From an uncultured Pelagibacteraceae bacterium (GTDB taxonomy: Bacteria; Pseudomonadota; Alphaproteobacteria; Pelagibacterales; Pelagibacteraceae): a DNA stretch of 60,203 nt. Made by a program: the position numbers and the translations under genes. Every line of letters starts with the position of its first letter. Position 1 is the first letter of the stretch. This document shows positions 5,566 through 58,667 of this stretch, in pieces. The stretch covers positions 96,831 through 157,033 of the forward strand of contig CACHWN010000001.1 in NCBI GenBank assembly GCA_902583585.1. Direction: 5' to 3'. Under the pieces are notes generated by a model. That model saw only the letters and a program-made list of their open reading frames with translations. It ran no database searches and had not been told where the DNA came from.

Positions 5566-5838
5566 TTAAATTAATCCTAAAATTTTGGCTCTTTTAATTT
5601 CTTGATTTAGTTTTTTTTGTTTTTTAAACGAGACAGAAGTAATTTTAGAAGAAATTATTTTTCCATTTTCCGAAGTATATTTCTTTAATAAAGATATATT
5701 TTTATAATCAATAATTGGAGCATTTTTTATCGAAAGAGGACATCTTTTAGAAAACTTCCCATCATTTTTTTGGAATAGACTCAACTTACTAAGTGAATTT
5801 GTATTTCTTTTTTGGAATTTTTTATTTTTTCTTTTCAT
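5566..5838 (-). CDS. rpsR: 30S ribosomal protein S18
   Basis: Small-subunit protein that pairs with S6 on the platform. The 90 residues contain the family signature around CPLSIKNAPIIDYKNISLL and the C-terminal block SFKKQKKLNQEIKRAKILG. The N-terminal extension is Lys-rich and fits the overall Lys bias of the window. It lies 3 nt after rpsF and immediately before rplI. Confidence 0.95.
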   Translation of the reverse strand: MKRKNKKFQKRNTNSLSKLSLFQKNDGKFSKRCPLSIKNAPIIDYKNISLLKKYTSENGKIISSKITSVSFKKQKKLNQEIKRAKILGLI

Positions 5839-47443: not shown

Positions 47444-48505
47444 ATGGGAACAGAGTCAATTGAAGCAAGTTTTTTATCGTTTTTTGCTTTAGTAAGTTTT
47501 TTTATTTTCCTAATTGTGAGTAAATATTCACATAAAATTAGAGGTGGAAGTTTACTTGATAAAGATTTTACAAAACCGCAAGCTTTTCATGACACGCCTA
47601 TTACTCGAAGTGGAGGAATAGCTATTATAATTTCTTTCAGCATTTTTTTCATAATTTATGACTTGCTTTATGATCAAGTTTTATATGATTATATTTTCAT
47701 AAGTTACTCAGTGTTTCTAGTCGGTTTTTTAGATGACTTAAGGATTAATATAAAACCTTTAACAAGATTAATTATTATGATTTTTCTTGTTTTTATACAT
47801 ACATATATTTTGCCAATAAAGATTTTTAATATAGATGTTCCATTTTTAACTTTATTAATGTCTAGTCATATTTTCTCTTCAATATTTGTACTTTTATGTT
47901 TCTTATTTGTGATAAATGGTGCTAATTTAATAGATGGTTTTAATGGATTATTAACAATTAATTTAATTATTATTAATATTATATTAACTTACATAAATAT
48001 TAATAATGGGAATTTGGAATTTTCAATTTTATTGATATCTCAAATTATAATACTTTTTTCATTTTTACTATTTAATTTTCCAAATGCAAAAATTTTTCTT
48101 GGTGACAGCGGCGCTTATACTTTAGGAGCCATGACTGCACTTAACACAATTATTACAAACAATTTAAACCCTTCAGTTTCTTCATTCTTTTTTTGCACTC
48201 TCTTATTTTACCTTTTTTTTGAAGTATTTTTTTCATTCTTTAGAAAAATATTAGAAAAAAAATCCCCTATACATCCAGATAATAAACATTTGCATATGTT
48301 GAGTTTTTATAAAATCTCCAATTTTTATGGAGAAAGTAGAGGCAATTATTTAAATTCAATAATTATAAATTTTTTATATTTGATATTAATACTACCTGGT
48401 CTATATTTGATGAAGGATCCTCAACTAAGCCGGTATTGGTTTTTTATATTATTGCTAATCTACCTGTTAATTTACTCAGGACTTTATCGTTTAACAAAAA
48501 ATTAA
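47444..48505 (+). CDS. Polyprenyl-phosphate glycosyl-1-phosphate transferase (WecA/MraY family)
   Basis: A 353-residue membrane enzyme with about ten helices. Predicted to transfer a sugar-1-phosphate from a UDP-sugar to undecaprenyl phosphate, starting a surface glycan. Family motifs: VGFLDDLR, the Mg site NGANLIDGFNGL, and FLGDSGAYTLGA. A cytosolic HPDNKHLHMLS loop with His residues is typical of the WecA group. It could feed O-antigen or another envelope polymer. Confidence 0.87.
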   Translation: MGTESIEASFLSFFALVSFFIFLIVSKYSHKIRGGSLLDKDFTKPQAFHDTPITRSGGIAIIISFSIFFIIYDLLYDQVLYDYIFISYSVFLVGFLDDLRINIKPLTRLIIMIFLVFIHTYILPIKIFNIDVPFLTLLMSSHIFSSIFVLLCFLFVINGANLIDGFNGLLTINLIIINIILTYININNGNLEFSILLISQIIILFSFLLFNFPNAKIFLGDSGAYTLGAMTALNTIITNNLNPSVSSFFFCTLLFYLFFEVFFSFFRKILEKKSPIHPDNKHLHMLSFYKISNFYGESRGNYLNSIIINFLYLILILPGLYLMKDPQLSRYWFFILLLIYLLIYSGLYRLTKN

Positions 48506-48534: not shown

Positions 48535-48619
48535 GGGCAAGTGGCGGAATTGGTATACGCGCTGGTCTTAGAAACCAGTGCCGCAAGGCTTAAGAGTTCG
48601 AGTCTCTTCTTGCCCACCA
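48535..48619 (+). tRNA. tRNA-Leu (anticodon UAG)
   Basis: An 85-nt cloverleaf with acceptor arms GGGCAAG/CTTGCCC, anticodon stem CTGGT/ACCAG and loop CTTAGAA giving UAG. It has the long variable arm of a Leu tRNA, a TTCGAGT T-loop and an encoded CCA end. It ends 7 nt before the tig start codon. Confidence 0.97.
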
Positions 48620-48626
48620 AAAAGTT

Positions 48627-49997
48627 ATGAAAGTAGAAGTAAAATCAAAAAAAGGACTTAGAACAATTTTGTCTGTGATAGTTGATAAAAAAAACATACA
48701 GGTAAAAATGGAAGAGAGACTAAAAGAACTTCAAAAAGAGGTAGCCCTAAAAGGTTTTAGACCAGGAAAAGTTCCTACCGAAGTAATTAAAAGTCAATTT
48801 GGTAAATCTGTATATGGAGAGGTAGTAGATAAGATTTTAAGAGAAACCACTTCAAAAGCTATTGATGAAAAAAAATTAAAAGTTGCTGGTCAACCAAAAA
48901 TTGATCTGAAACAATTTGGTGAGGGAAAAGATTTAAATTATGAACTTCAGATTGATTGTTTGCCTAATGTAAATTTAAAGAGCTTCGAAAAATTTAAAGC
49001 TACGAGTTTTAAAGTAAAGATTGAAGAAAAAATTATTGAGGAAAAATTAAAAGAAATTTCAACTCAAAACAAACAATTCGAGGATAAAGATAAATATGAG
49101 AAAGCGATGAAAGGAGATCAAGTTATTTTTGATTATTCAGCCACAGTTGAAGGAAATAAATTTGATGGCAGCGAGGGAAAAGGTATTCAGCTAGAGTTAG
49201 GAAAAGATCTATTTTTAAAAGGTTTTGATGATCAATTAATTGGAGTAAAAAAAAATGATGTAAAAATTTTAGACGCAATACTTCCAGCAAACCACCCTAA
49301 AAAAGAACTTGCTAATAAAAAATCTAAATTTGAATGTAAAATTTTAAATGTTAAAAAACCTAAAGTTAGTAAAATCGACGATGAATTTGCCAAATTAATG
49401 GGAGCAAAAGATATTAAAGATTTAAAATCTTTAATTAAGAAACAAATTTCCGTTCAATATTCTCAATCATTAAACTCAATTACTAAAAAAGAAATATTGG
49501 ATCAAATTGAAAAAAACCATCAAGTAGATTTACCTCAGAATCTAATAGATCAAGAAATTTCAATTATGACTCAAAATCTTAAGCCCGAAGATAAAGAAAA
49601 ACATAAATCTACTAATGAAAAGTTGGCAAAATCAAGAATTAAACTAGGATTATTGCTTAATGAATATGGAGAAAAAAACAATTTAAAAGTATCAGATGCA
49701 GAAGTCACAACAGCAATACAAAAACAAGTAAGAAGTATGCCTGGCCAAGAAAAAATGGTTCTTGAATATTATCAAAAAAATCCAAGCGCTACTCAAAGTT
49801 TAAAAGGTTCGTTGTATGAGGAAAAAATAATTGAGTTGATAAAATCAAAAATAAACCTCACATTAAAAGAAATAAATACGAGAGAGGCTGAAAAAATAAT
49901 TGCTGAATTTAGTAAACCAAATGTAGGTGATCAAAAATTAAAAAGTACATCAACTGTTAAAAATAAGTCAAAATTAAAAAAAATTAGTAAAAAGTAA
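48627..49997 (+). CDS. tig: Trigger factor
   Basis: Ribosome-bound chaperone and prolyl isomerase. The 456 residues have the ribosome-docking signature GFRPGKVP at 43-50, an FKBP-like domain (about 150-245) around VIFDYSATVEGNKFDGSEG, and a long helical C-terminal domain with a Lys/Ser-rich tail. No Shine-Dalgarno is visible in the 7 nt between the tRNA-Leu end and the ATG. Followed by clpP-clpX-lon in the usual proteostasis order. Confidence 0.95.
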   Translation: MKVEVKSKKGLRTILSVIVDKKNIQVKMEERLKELQKEVALKGFRPGKVPTEVIKSQFGKSVYGEVVDKILRETTSKAIDEKKLKVAGQPKIDLKQFGEGKDLNYELQIDCLPNVNLKSFEKFKATSFKVKIEEKIIEEKLKEISTQNKQFEDKDKYEKAMKGDQVIFDYSATVEGNKFDGSEGKGIQLELGKDLFLKGFDDQLIGVKKNDVKILDAILPANHPKKELANKKSKFECKILNVKKPKVSKIDDEFAKLMGAKDIKDLKSLIKKQISVQYSQSLNSITKKEILDQIEKNHQVDLPQNLIDQEISIMTQNLKPEDKEKHKSTNEKLAKSRIKLGLLLNEYGEKNNLKVSDAEVTTAIQKQVRSMPGQEKMVLEYYQKNPSATQSLKGSLYEEKIIELIKSKINLTLKEINTREAEKIIAEFSKPNVGDQKLKSTSTVKNKSKLKKISKK

Positions 49998-50019: not shown

Positions 50020-50631
50020 ATGAGTCGTGAATTAGAAGAAAAAATGAATAGCTTAATCCCAATGGTTGTTGAACAAACAAGCAAAGGAGAAAGAGCTTAT
50101 GATATATATTCTAGGTTATTAAAAGAGAGAATAGTTTTCTTAGTTGGCCCAGTTAATGATGCAGTTGCTTCTCTAGTTACAGCTCAATTACTTTTTTTAG
50201 AATCAGAGAATCCAAACAAAGAAATAAATTTTTATATTAATAGCCCAGGTGGGTTGGTAACTGCAGGCTTGGGAATTTATGATACAATGCAATATATAAA
50301 CTCGCCTGTCTCGACACTTTGCATTGGCCAAGCTTCATCTATGGGTTCATTTCTTTTAGCAGCTGGAGAAAAAGGAAAAAGATACTCTCTTCCAAACTCT
50401 CGAATTATGGTTCACCAACCTTCAGCAGGATTTCAAGGTCAAGCTACCGATATTCAAATTCATGCTAAAGAAATTTTATCATTGAAAGAAAGGTTAAATA
50501 AAATCTACTCTAAACATACTGGTAAATCGATTGACCAAATATCTGATGCTCTTGAAAGAGATAATTTTATGACAGCCGATGAAGCAAAAAAATTTGGGCT
50601 AATAGATTCTGTTGTGGAAAAAAGAAAATAA
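50020..50631 (+). CDS. clpP: ATP-dependent Clp protease proteolytic subunit
   Basis: Serine protease forming the tetradecameric barrel. From the ATG at 50020 it has 203 residues. Ser107 in [10 protein letters not shown] and His132 in [15 protein letters not shown] are the catalytic pair visible; the Asp lies in the DNFMTADEA region. The frame is open to a TTG at 50005, and the ATG at 50044 ([12 protein letters not shown]) is another possible start. Followed by its partner clpX. Confidence 0.96.
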
Positions 50632-50709: not shown

Positions 50710-51963
50710 ATGTCAGATAAAAATAACAAAAATATTCTTTATTGCTCTTTCTGCGGAAAAAGCCAACACGAGGTGAGAAAGTTAATTGCAGGCCCAACTG
50801 TATTTATTTGCGATGAATGCGTTGAACTCTGTATGGATATTATAAAAGAGGAAAATAAAAGTTCTCTGGTGAAACATCAAGATGGAGTACCTACGCCAAA
50901 AGAAATTTGTAATGTTTTAGACGATTATGTAATTGGACAAAAGTTGGCAAAAGAAATTTTATCAGTCGCTGTTCATAATCATTATAAGAGATTAAATCAT
51001 GAAACAAAAAATAATAAAGATGTTGAATTATCAAAATCTAATATTTTATTAGTTGGTCCTACAGGTTGTGGAAAGACTTTACTTGCTCAAACTTTAGCAA
51101 GAATTTTAGATGTGCCATTTACAATGGCAGATGCTACAACATTAACTGAGGCTGGATATGTAGGAGAAGATGTTGAAAATATAATATTGAAATTATTACA
51201 ATCAGCCGATTACAACGTTGAAAAAGCTCAAAGAGGTATTGTTTATATAGATGAGGTTGATAAAATAAGTAGAAAGTCAGAAAACCCATCTATTACCAGA
51301 GATGTTTCTGGTGAGGGAGTTCAACAAGCTCTTTTAAAAATTATGGAAGGCACTGTTGCAAGTGTGCCCCCACAAGGTGGAAGAAAACATCCTCAACAAG
51401 AATTTTTACAAGTTGACACCACAAATATTTTATTTATTTGCGGCGGAGCTTTTGCAGGCCTTGACAAAGTAATTACAAGTAGAGGCAAAGGAAGCTCGAT
51501 AGGTTTTGGCGCGAAAGTAAAAAGTTATAAAGAGCAGCCACTTTCAGAGACAATGAAACAATTAGAGCCAGAAGATCTTATCAAGTACGGACTTATACCA
51601 GAATTTATTGGCAGAATGCCAATCATAGCAACTTTAGATGACTTAGATGAAAAATCCTTAATTAAAATTTTAAAAGAGCCAAAAAATTCTCTTATTAAAC
51701 AATATCAAAGACTTTTTGAGTTTGAGAATGTTGAATTGGAATTTCAAGATGGCGCGATTTCTGAGATAGCCAAAAAAGCCATTTCAAAAAAAACTGGTGC
51801 AAGAGGTTTAAGATCAATTTTAGAAAACATATTGTTAAAAACAATGTTTGAATTACCTGATATGGATAATGTTATAAAAGTGACCGTAGATAGTGCTTCT
51901 GTTAAAGGATCTTCAGAACCCATTGTCACATATGGTAAAAAACCATCAACATCAGTCGCTTGA
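50710..51963 (+). CDS. clpX: ATP-dependent Clp protease unfoldase ClpX
   Basis: AAA+ unfoldase feeding ClpP. The 417 residues start with a zinc-binding domain (Cys12, Cys15, Cys34, Cys37). Walker A is GPTGCGKT at 116-123, Walker B is VYIDEVDKI, and the pore loop is GYVGEDV-type. An IGF-type ClpP-contact loop is visible as SSIGFGAKV. Length and order are standard. Confidence 0.97.
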
Positions 51964-52011: not shown

Positions 52012-54396
52012 ATGAAAACTTCTATCTTAAAACCTTTATTGCCATTAAGGGATATAGTTATATTTCCTTCAATGGTAGTACCTTTATTTGTGGGAAGAGA
52101 AAAATCCATCAAAGCTTTGCAAGAAGTTATGAAATCAGACAAATCAATTGTCCTAGTAACACAAAAAAATTCTGAAATTGATGATCCTATAGGTAAAGAT
52201 TTGTATCAGTATGGTTGTTTAAGTAAGGTTCTTCAGCTTCTTAAACTTCCAGATGGAACGGTGAAAGTTTTGGTTGAAGGAGAAAAAAGAGTAAAAATTA
52301 TTAAACATAATGAAAAAGATGATAATTATTTAACTTGCGAAGTTGAGGTGGTGGAGGATCAGAATATTACAAAAGATCTTGATCAATTAGCCATGGGTCT
52401 CGTAAAAAAATTTGAAAGACTTCAGGTTTTAAGTAAAAAAGATTTAGGTGAAGGTTCTAACAATCTAAAAAGTTTAAAAGACCCTTCTCTGATTGCAAAT
52501 AATATTTCTTCTAACCTTAATATTCAAATTTTTGAAAAACAAGAGTTGTTAGAAATATTCGATCTTAAAAAAAAACTTGAAAAAATTCATGCGTTTATTG
52601 AGAAAGAGACAAGTGTTTTATCTGTGGAAAAAAGAATTAGAGGCAGAGTTAAAAATCAAATGGAAAAAACACAAAGAGAATATTATTTAAATGAGCAACT
52701 TAAAGCTATTCAAAAAGAGCTAGGTGAAATAGATGAAGGAAAGGATGAATTAACCTCTTTATCAAAGGCAATAAATGAAGCTAAAATGCCAAAACTGGCA
52801 AAAGAAAAATGTCTATCTGAATTAAAAAAACTAAAATCAATGAGTCCCATGTCAGCAGAGGCTACTGTTGTTAGAAATTACTTGGATTGGATGACAGAAT
52901 TACCATGGGCAAATAAATCTAAAATTAACAGCGATTTAAACAATGCGCAAAAAATTTTAGATGAAGACCATTATGGTCTTGAAAAAGTTAAAGAGAGAAT
53001 TATTGAGTTTTTGGCTGTCCAAAAAAGAATACAAAAAATGAAAGGACCTATTCTATGTTTAGTTGGCCCTCCAGGAGTTGGAAAAACATCTTTAGGTAAA
53101 TCTATAGCTAAAGCCACTAATAGAAAATTCATTAGAATTTCATTAGGCGGTATCAGAGACGAAGCTGAGATTAGAGGACATAGAAGAACTTATATAGGTT
53201 CTCTTCCAGGAAAGATAATTCAAATGATGAAAAAAGCAGGTACCAAAAACCCTCTTTTTTTACTTGATGAGATAGATAAAGTTGGAAATGATTATAGAGG
53301 AGACCCTTCTTCAGCTTTACTTGAAGCGCTGGATCCAGAACAAAATAAAGAATTTAATGATCATTACTTAGAAGTTGATTACGATTTATCTGATGTAATG
53401 TTTGTAACTACTGCTAATACATTAAATATTTTACCACCTCTTTTAGACAGGATGGAAGTTATAAGATTATCCGGTTATACTGAGGAGGAGAAATTGAATA
53501 TTTCAAAAAAATTTTTAATCCCTAACCAAAGTAAAAATAATGGTTTAAAAAAAGAGGAATGGAATATTGATGAGGAAAATATAAGAAGAATTATAAGGCA
53601 TTACACTAGAGAGTCTGGAGTAAGAAACCTTGAGAGAGAAATTTCGAAAATAGCTAGAAAACTAGTAAAAAAAATTGATAACAAAGAAAAAGTAAATAAT
53701 CCAATAAGCGAAAAGGATTTAAATGATTTACTTGGTGTAAAAAAATATAATTACGGGGAAATTGAAGAAGAAAATAGAGTTGGAGTAGTTACGGGATTAG
53801 CTTGGACCGAAGTTGGCGGTGAAATATTAAAAATTGAGTCAGCAGTCATGCCAGGTAAAGGTAAAATGCAGATCACTGGTAAGTTAGGAGACGTTATGCA
53901 AGAGTCAGTTAAGGCTGCAAAATCTTATATAAGATCTAAAAGTTTAGACTTTGGTATAATACCTCCAATATTTGATAAAAAAGATTTTCATATACACGTG
54001 CCTGAAGGCGCAACTCCAAAAGATGGCCCATCCGCAGGTGTTGGGATGGTAACATCAATAATTTCTGCAATAACAGAAATACCAGTGAGCAAAGACGTAG
54101 CTATGACAGGGGAAATAACTCTGAGGGGATTAGTTCTACCAATTGGAGGACTAAAGGAAAAATTGCTAGCTGCTCACAGAGCTGGCATAAAAAAAGTATT
54201 AATACCAATTGAAAATGAAAAAGATCTTGCCGAAGTTCCAAAAACAGTTTTAGACTCAATAAAGATTACACCAGTGAAAAATATCGACGAGGTCTTGAAG
54301 GTTGCTTTAACAAAACCATTTAAAAGAGTAGAGTGGGTTGATGTAGATCCTATTTCTAAAAAAGAAAAAAACAAAGAAGAATTAAGCACTCATTAA
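52012..54396 (+). CDS. lon: ATP-dependent protease Lon
   Basis: A 794-residue LonA protease. The N-terminal substrate domain starts [25 protein letters not shown]. The AAA+ module has Walker A GPPGVGKT at 352-359, and the C-terminal protease domain has the catalytic Ser674 in [11 protein letters not shown]. The partner Lys is in [18 protein letters not shown]. Ends 2 nt before the convergent GT17 gene. Confidence 0.97.
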
Positions 54397-58506: not shown

Positions 58507-58582
58507 GGGCGGTTAGCTCAGTTGGTAGAGCATCTCGTTTACACCGAGAGGGTCATAGGTTCGAGTCCTTTACCGCCCACCA
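58507..58582 (+). tRNA. tRNA-Val (anticodon UAC)
   Basis: A 76-nt cloverleaf with acceptor arms GGGCGGT/ACCGCCC, anticodon stem TCTCG/CGAGA, loop TTTACAC giving UAC, T-loop TTCGAGT and encoded CCA. The T stem (ATAGG/CCTTT) contains one T-T mismatch at its second pair. Located 7 nt before tRNA-Asp. Confidence 0.96.
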
Positions 58583-58589
58583 TTAAATT

Positions 58590-58667
58590 GGGGGTGTAGC
58601 TCAGTTTGGTTAGAGCGCCTGCCTGTCACGCAGGAGGTCGCGGGTTCGAGTCCCGTCACTCCCGCCA
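58590..58667 (+). tRNA. tRNA-Asp (anticodon GUC)
   Basis: A 78-nt cloverleaf with acceptor arms GGGGGTG/CACTCCC (one G-T pair), anticodon stem CCTGC/GCAGG, loop CTGTCAC giving GUC, T arm GCGGG/CCCGT with TTCGAGT, and encoded CCA. The Val-Asp pair before nuoA is a conserved alphaproteobacterial arrangement. Confidence 0.97.

Follow-up and report, generated by a model that had tools for sequence, protein, structure and literature searches.

A tRNA-Leu(UAG)-trigger factor junction in SAR11 bacteria, probably an old gene pair pressed together by genome streamlining

Mitochondrial mRNAs have almost no leader, and in the secG-leuU mixed operon of E. coli an mRNA lies upstream of a tRNA. For animal mitochondria, the tRNA punctuation model (Ojala et al. 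1981, as presented in the review PMC4394434) has tRNAs released by RNase P and RNase Z and delimiting nearly all mRNAs of transcripts that span the genome. In SAR11, which is among the most abundant bacteria on Earth (PMC7029224, as far as its text was available), a locus of the kind treated here, tRNA-Leu(TAG) with the gene for trigger factor, has been described as an attachment site of pelagiphages (PMC6811365). The available part of that paper is concerned with phage integration, and the spacer and the expression of tig are not treated in it. A literature search on the tRNA-Leu-tig junction, on leaderless bacterial mRNAs made by tRNA processing and on SAR11 start sites found the locus touched by this paper alone among the partly available texts, which does not prove its absence from print.

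The window, a stretch of 60,203 nucleotides from an uncultured Pelagibacteraceae bacterium (SAR11), belongs to a genome of 922,300 bases in 25 contigs that is 83% complete. The closest named relatives of its tig protein are Pelagibacteraceae, 73-89% identical over most of the length. The features around the junction are as follows.

47444..48505, + strand: WecA/MraY-like glycosyl-phosphate transferase gene, the upstream neighbour (NCBIfam wecA 55.8 bits, mraY 41.4 bits, both below cut-off)
48491..48496, + strand: TTAACA, a weak -35-like hexamer within the 3' end of the WecA/MraY-like gene, 16 nt before TATAAA
48511..48517, + strand: TATATAA, presumed -10 of the tRNA-Leu promoter, past the stop codon of the upstream gene and conserved in the genus
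48535..48619, + strand: tRNA-Leu(UAG), anticodon TAG (ARAGORN), with the CCA encoded at 48617-48619
48565..48573, + strand: GTCTTAGAA, anticodon loop of tRNA-Leu(UAG), probable phage attachment core, common to both ends of the prophage in genome G034
48620..48626, + strand: AAAAGTT spacer (sequence read directly), proposed endonucleolytic release site and tig 5' leader
48627..49997, + strand: tig, trigger factor, ATG at 48627-48629 (TIGR00115 340.7 bits, cut-off 180.2)
50020..50631, + strand: clpP (TIGR00493 316.1 bits)
50710..51963, + strand: clpX (TIGR00382 659.8 bits)
52012..54396, + strand: lon (TIGR00763 964.8 bits)

The initial annotation had placed 7 nt between the encoded CCA and the start codon of tig, with no Shine-Dalgarno among them. 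Both statements are exact by ARAGORN and the sequence, the spacer containing none of AGGA, GGAG, GAGG or AAGG. Downstream, profile matches give the order tig, clpP, clpX, lon.

The resemblance to mitochondrial punctuation lies in a compact genome with a tRNA directly before an mRNA, whose 5' end would be made by excision of the tRNA, and in an mRNA start that abuts the tRNA 3' end (7 nt here, 4-13 nt in 109 of 115 SAR11-family loci). The differences are that SAR11 tRNAs do not delimit nearly all mRNAs, only 7 of 25 tRNA genes having a same-strand ATG within 10 nt; that the SAR11 tRNA encodes its CCA; that no RNase Z was found over cut-off, so that RNase E would replace it; and that a promoter-like element stands right before tRNA-Leu. 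As in secG-leuU, tRNA and mRNA would share one transcript and be parted by tRNA-processing enzymes. Unlike in that operon, the tig mRNA is downstream of the tRNA, with a spacer that could not hold an ordinary leader. The explanation that we consider probable is that an old gene pair was pressed together by SAR11 streamlining, that tRNA and tig are co-transcribed, tig having a short leader, and that their closeness is a by-product. Streamlining would have removed all room for a promoter of tig's own and for a long leader.

The tRNA-Leu(UAG)-tig pairing is conserved far beyond chance and recurs through the class. In 115 of 119 SAR11-family loci (57 of the same genus, 62 of other genera), tig comes directly after an intact tRNA-Leu(UAG); in the four misses, the contig starts inside the tRNA (L006, L229) or the locus carries an insertion (L249, L223). 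A partly overlapping check of named Pelagibacteraceae and Pelagibacterales found tRNA-Leu(TAG) upstream in 52 of 56 loci, the other 4 starting inside tig (a 57th, L321, was left out). In the sister family of the order, the pairing was detected by script in 24 of 26 loci; in a 25th (L180) it is present by eye with a gap of 18 nt, and L194, cut by a contig edge, is counted as a miss. Among other Alphaproteobacteria, tRNA-Leu(UAG) precedes tig in 78 of 89 loci (a truncated locus with an unsafe anchor, L088, was set aside from 90), and in the remaining 11 there is no tRNA within the 0.7-1.5 kb taken. The loci are listed tig matches, mostly the better-scoring ones and part of them hand-picked rather than random, which leaves divergent lineages of the class thinly sampled; genomes with no tig match were left out (26 of 101, 49 of 247, 9 of 289 and 5 of 58). 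From this distribution, tRNA-Leu(UAG)-tig appears to be an old alphaproteobacterial gene order.

The gap itself is 5-12 nt in 54 of 55 same-genus loci (median 7), with 34 nt in the one other, and 4-16 nt in 58 of 60 loci of other SAR11-family genera, the last two having 21 and 54 nt. In other Alphaproteobacteria its median is 75 nt (range 22-584, n=78). The choice of start codon was corrected by hand for L035, L208, L224, L225 and L200. Variable spacing in close relatives, which the initial annotation had named as refuting its reading, is thus found even within the genus. A selected spacing of exactly 7 nt was ruled out, since spacing varies among SAR11 loci. The short gap is attributed to streamlining, because tight neighbours are general in these genomes. 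By crude ORF calls, 25 of 33 same-strand neighbouring ORF pairs in the window are at most 10 nt apart or overlap, converging ORFs end 1, 1, 2, 4, 4 and 14 nt past six tRNA genes of the source genome, and the median intergenic length given for 'Cand. P. ubique' is 3 nt (PMC2704228, available in part). The closeness of tig to its tRNA is not beyond chance in so compact a genome. The absence of a Shine-Dalgarno sequence is likewise ordinary in the window, where an SD-like 4-mer occurs at -18 to -4 in 7 of 55 ORFs, compared with 12 of 220 shifted control windows.

Within the genus, 52 of 55 loci have TATATAA upstream of the tRNA, at a distance of 13-24 nt from its 5' end; the frequency of this word in the window would predict about 0.02 per 80 nt. 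In the window the element is outside the upstream gene, past its stop codon, so that its conservation is not a matter of coding constraint. TTAACA is inside coding sequence, so its conservation proves nothing. TATATAA was not listed by a consensus promoter scan, which demands T at the sixth position. Its presence in only 23 of 59 loci of other SAR11-family genera counts against a single-promoter reading, as does the small weight of a promoter called from sequence, and it was found in 0 of 24 sister-family loci, in which other upstream blocks are conserved. A near-invariant TAGTCTATTTTGCATTTTCTATTAATC, different from TATATAA and possibly a promoter, stands just before tRNA-Leu(UAG) in that family (L175-L200). 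The 7-nt, A/T-rich spacer contains neither terminator nor promoter, and the single terminator-like site between 47500 and 50500 is on the - strand. In the wider class, a terminator-like site occurs in 4 of 78 tRNA-tig gaps, where shuffled sequences would give 1.2, and most gaps show no sign of a transcription stop between tRNA and tig. Active promoters have been mapped in HTCC7211 (PMC5069720, available in part). The simplest reading of this arrangement is a single promoter before the tRNA, with transcription that would start just upstream of tRNA-Leu and read through into tig; co-transcription is preferred because TATATAA is conserved upstream and the spacer is too short for a promoter.

A promoter of tig might also lie inside the tRNA gene, in which case the tig leader would hold part of the tRNA and the two transcripts would be independent. 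TATACG (48554) and TAGAAA (48569) match TATAAT at 4 of 6 positions, and conservation cannot speak against such a promoter, the tRNA sequence being fixed by its own function. However, both hexamers lack the T at position 6 and are weaker than the conserved upstream element (the best match is 4/6 inside tRNA and spacer vs 5/6 upstream of the tRNA). Moreover, the gap is at least 22 nt in the 78 class loci, so such a promoter would need to have moved into the tRNA as the gap shrank. An internal tig promoter is therefore considered unlikely.

It is established for bacteria that the tRNA 5' end is made by RNase P, and the same would hold for a co-transcribed tRNA-Leu-tig RNA. An endonuclease, most likely RNase E, would then cut the A/U spacer, and exonucleases would trim the tRNA back to the encoded CCA. 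The same cut would release the tig mRNA, which would have 0-7 nt ahead of its start codon, lack a Shine-Dalgarno and be translated in the manner of leaderless mRNAs. A 5'-monophosphate mRNA left by RNase E could be unstable, which counts against this model. CCA is encoded in all 25 tRNA genes found in the source genome. A protein of the RNase E/G family was found over cut-off in 37 of 41 genomes, the source genome included, by a model (TIGR00757) that does not part RNase E from RNase G. RNase Z was over cut-off in 0 of 41 genomes, with weak partial matches in 34, none of them the source genome; these matches may hide a divergent enzyme. The same-genus spacers are 94.6% A+T over 443 nt and thus suit RNase E. 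Data obtained in other bacteria are compatible with these steps: cuts a few nucleotides downstream of P. acnes tRNA genes with encoded CCA are consistent with exonuclease trimming (PMC3848588, available in part), and E. coli RNase E acts on tRNA precursors by direct entry (PMC3985628, available in part). With an RNase E/G protein encoded and RNase Z not over cut-off, the probable outcome is cleavage within the A/U spacer, after which tig would keep a leader of at most 7 nt.

Several properties of the RNA bear on such a leader. From the first nucleotide after CCA, the RNA has hardly any structure (-2.0 kcal/mol, z +1.49); the fold of the fused tRNA-tig RNA has a z of -0.50 under an energy model that does not recover the cloverleaf. 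Provided that the RNA is cut in the spacer, tig would thus have an unstructured 5' end with no Shine-Dalgarno. In Caulobacter, also an alphaproteobacterium, 375 mRNAs are leaderless with a translation efficiency similar to that of leadered ones, and mRNAs with no leader or no SD reach about the translation level of SD-led mRNAs (PMC4117421, available in part). Of the 115 SAR11-family spacers, 11 contain SD-like words; two genera (g9, g12) have six loci in which GAGG or AAGG begins 2-3 nt after CCA in a spacer of 11-13 nt, a placing that would make sense if the spacer alone serves as leader. The initial annotation's suggestion of co-transcription, with a very short tig leader once the tRNA is released, gains indirect support from the upstream element, the 4-13 nt spacer and the RNase E/G protein.

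In the source genome, the ATG of a same-strand ORF follows the CCA by 4-9 nt at 7 of 25 tRNA genes. This genome is incomplete and may have more than 25 of them. The seven junctions are listed here, L090, L102, L104, L108 and L112 being the source-genome loci of the phhB-like, cca-like, glycosyltransferase-like, NAD kinase and acyl-CoA synthetase-like junctions.

tRNA-Gly-GCC, gap 4 nt: 4a-hydroxytetrahydrobiopterin dehydratase-like (phhB-like) gene, below family cut-off
tRNA-His(GUG), gap 4 nt: hisS, contig C4 of the source genome near 88709-88782
tRNA-Leu-CAA, gap 4 nt: acyl-CoA synthetase-like gene, named by eye
tRNA-Gln, gap 7 nt: CCA nucleotidyltransferase-like (cca-like) gene, below cut-off
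tRNA-Arg-ACG, gap 7 nt: glycosyltransferase-like gene, named by eye
tRNA-Leu-UAG, gap 7 nt: tig
tRNA-Leu-UAA, gap 9 nt: NAD kinase gene

A layout special to tig was ruled out, this one being common to seven tRNA genes of the same genome. Another tight tRNA junction in the window joins tRNA-Val(UAC) and tRNA-Asp(GUC), 7 nt apart (58507-58667). For hisS, which encodes the synthetase for the very tRNA that it follows, the 30 best-scoring loci of 58 SAR11-family genomes were taken (L330-L359), L345 being cut by a contig start. All 29 informative loci have the pair, 22 of them with a gap of 4 nt and the other 7 with one of 5 nt. In other Alphaproteobacteria (57 genomes searched), no tRNA of any kind was found near hisS in 30 loci, within at most 1.5 kb on each side. 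Among the loci read, the junction with the most constant gap is therefore that of hisS rather than that of tig, and it seems to have arisen in or near SAR11. A broader proposal, which we regard as possible but hold only tentatively, is that SAR11 has a bacterial form of tRNA punctuation, in which tRNA 3' maturation, with RNase E replacing RNase Z, would make the mRNA 5' ends of tig, hisS and the NAD kinase, cca-like, phhB-like, acyl-CoA synthetase-like and glycosyltransferase-like genes, with leaders of at most 9 nt. The supply of tRNA and the synthesis of translation proteins would then be tied together on one transcript.

Each transcript could instead serve a single purpose, most being cut and their tig mRNA degraded from the cut while an uncut minority is translated, so that tRNA maturation would limit tig. 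The nearly universal adjacency in the SAR11-family loci examined speaks for such an arrangement, but spacing and spacer motif are not conserved, and genes with no common function have the same layout. In addition, the acceptor stem would lie about 8 nt before the AUG of the uncut RNA, within the usual ribosome footprint. This scheme is given little credence, and co-transcription with release of a short-leader tig mRNA is preferred.

Two genomes show what happens when the junction is interrupted. In G034 (L249, L324, L326), a prophage of about 37 kb, both ends of which were read, has split tRNA-Leu(UAG) at the anticodon loop. The end of the prophage ahead of tig carries an integrase gene (PHROG integrase, 2.7e-46) and a tRNA-Leu(UAG) of its own, and the 3' half of the host tRNA is still joined to tig by a 7-nt spacer; the 5' half and the native promoter are left at the far end, about 37 kb away. 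G106 has an intact tRNA-Leu(UAG) and, between it and tig, a 195-aa ORF that by eye starts like a signal peptide, then a decayed tRNA and a 3' half-tRNA. This insert of about 1 kb (L325, 3828-4890) looks like the remnant of an integrated element. In both genomes a full tRNA-Leu(UAG) is still found further upstream of tig on the same strand. Since tig is not beside an intact host tRNA in either, excision of an adjacent intact tRNA is not indispensable.

The tRNA-Leu(UAG) of the window genome itself carries no phage integration. Three phages, HTVC011P, HTVC025P and uv-Fonsiphage-EPL, are able to use tRNA-Leu (TAG) as their integration site, with trigger factor next to the prophage (PMC6811365, available in part). 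The HTVC011P genome (L114) has a full tRNA-Leu(UAG) at 5592-5676, right after the integrase gene and absent from the feature table. A sensitive alignment finds this tRNA and a core-like copy of the anticodon-loop site at 5783-5803, 106 nt past this phage tRNA; a scan of HTVC011P for the 3' end of the window's tRNA with at most 3 mismatches gave no match. If HTVC011P integrates like the G034 phage, its tRNA would sit just upstream of tig on the same strand. A long-word phage similarity search gave no match, and a search for distant phages returned mostly tRNA-Leu genes of unrelated phages.

A dedicated coupling, in which processing of tRNA-Leu(UAG) would sense the state of translation and set trigger-factor output, fits the theme of a tRNA with a nascent-chain chaperone and the same layout at hisS, a second translation gene (4-5 nt in 29 of 29 informative SAR11-family loci), but is judged very improbable, given that the gap drifts from 4 to 54 nt, that the NAD kinase, phhB-like and glycosyltransferase-like genes share the layout, that converging ORFs come about equally close to tRNAs and that tig in G034 and G106 no longer abuts an intact host tRNA. 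The initial annotation's proposal of a chaperone output governed by tRNA processing is accordingly left unsupported, with spacing that drifts and insertions that separate tig from the intact tRNA in two genomes. On the streamlining account, closeness would be a by-product of compaction with no dedicated regulator, and if the rate of processing affected chaperone output at all, it would do so incidentally.

The seven tRNA-mRNA junctions of the source genome are concrete, easily tested sites for the question of how so compact a genome makes usable mRNA 5' ends without leaders. As the locus is also a phage attachment site, lysogeny swaps the transcription unit in front of the chaperone gene. Taken together, the tRNA-mRNA junctions deserve most attention, as they may be what mitochondrial tRNA punctuation looks like in bacteria. 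They suggest that a free-living bacterium under extreme compaction can arrive at a gene layout resembling the one in animal mitochondria.
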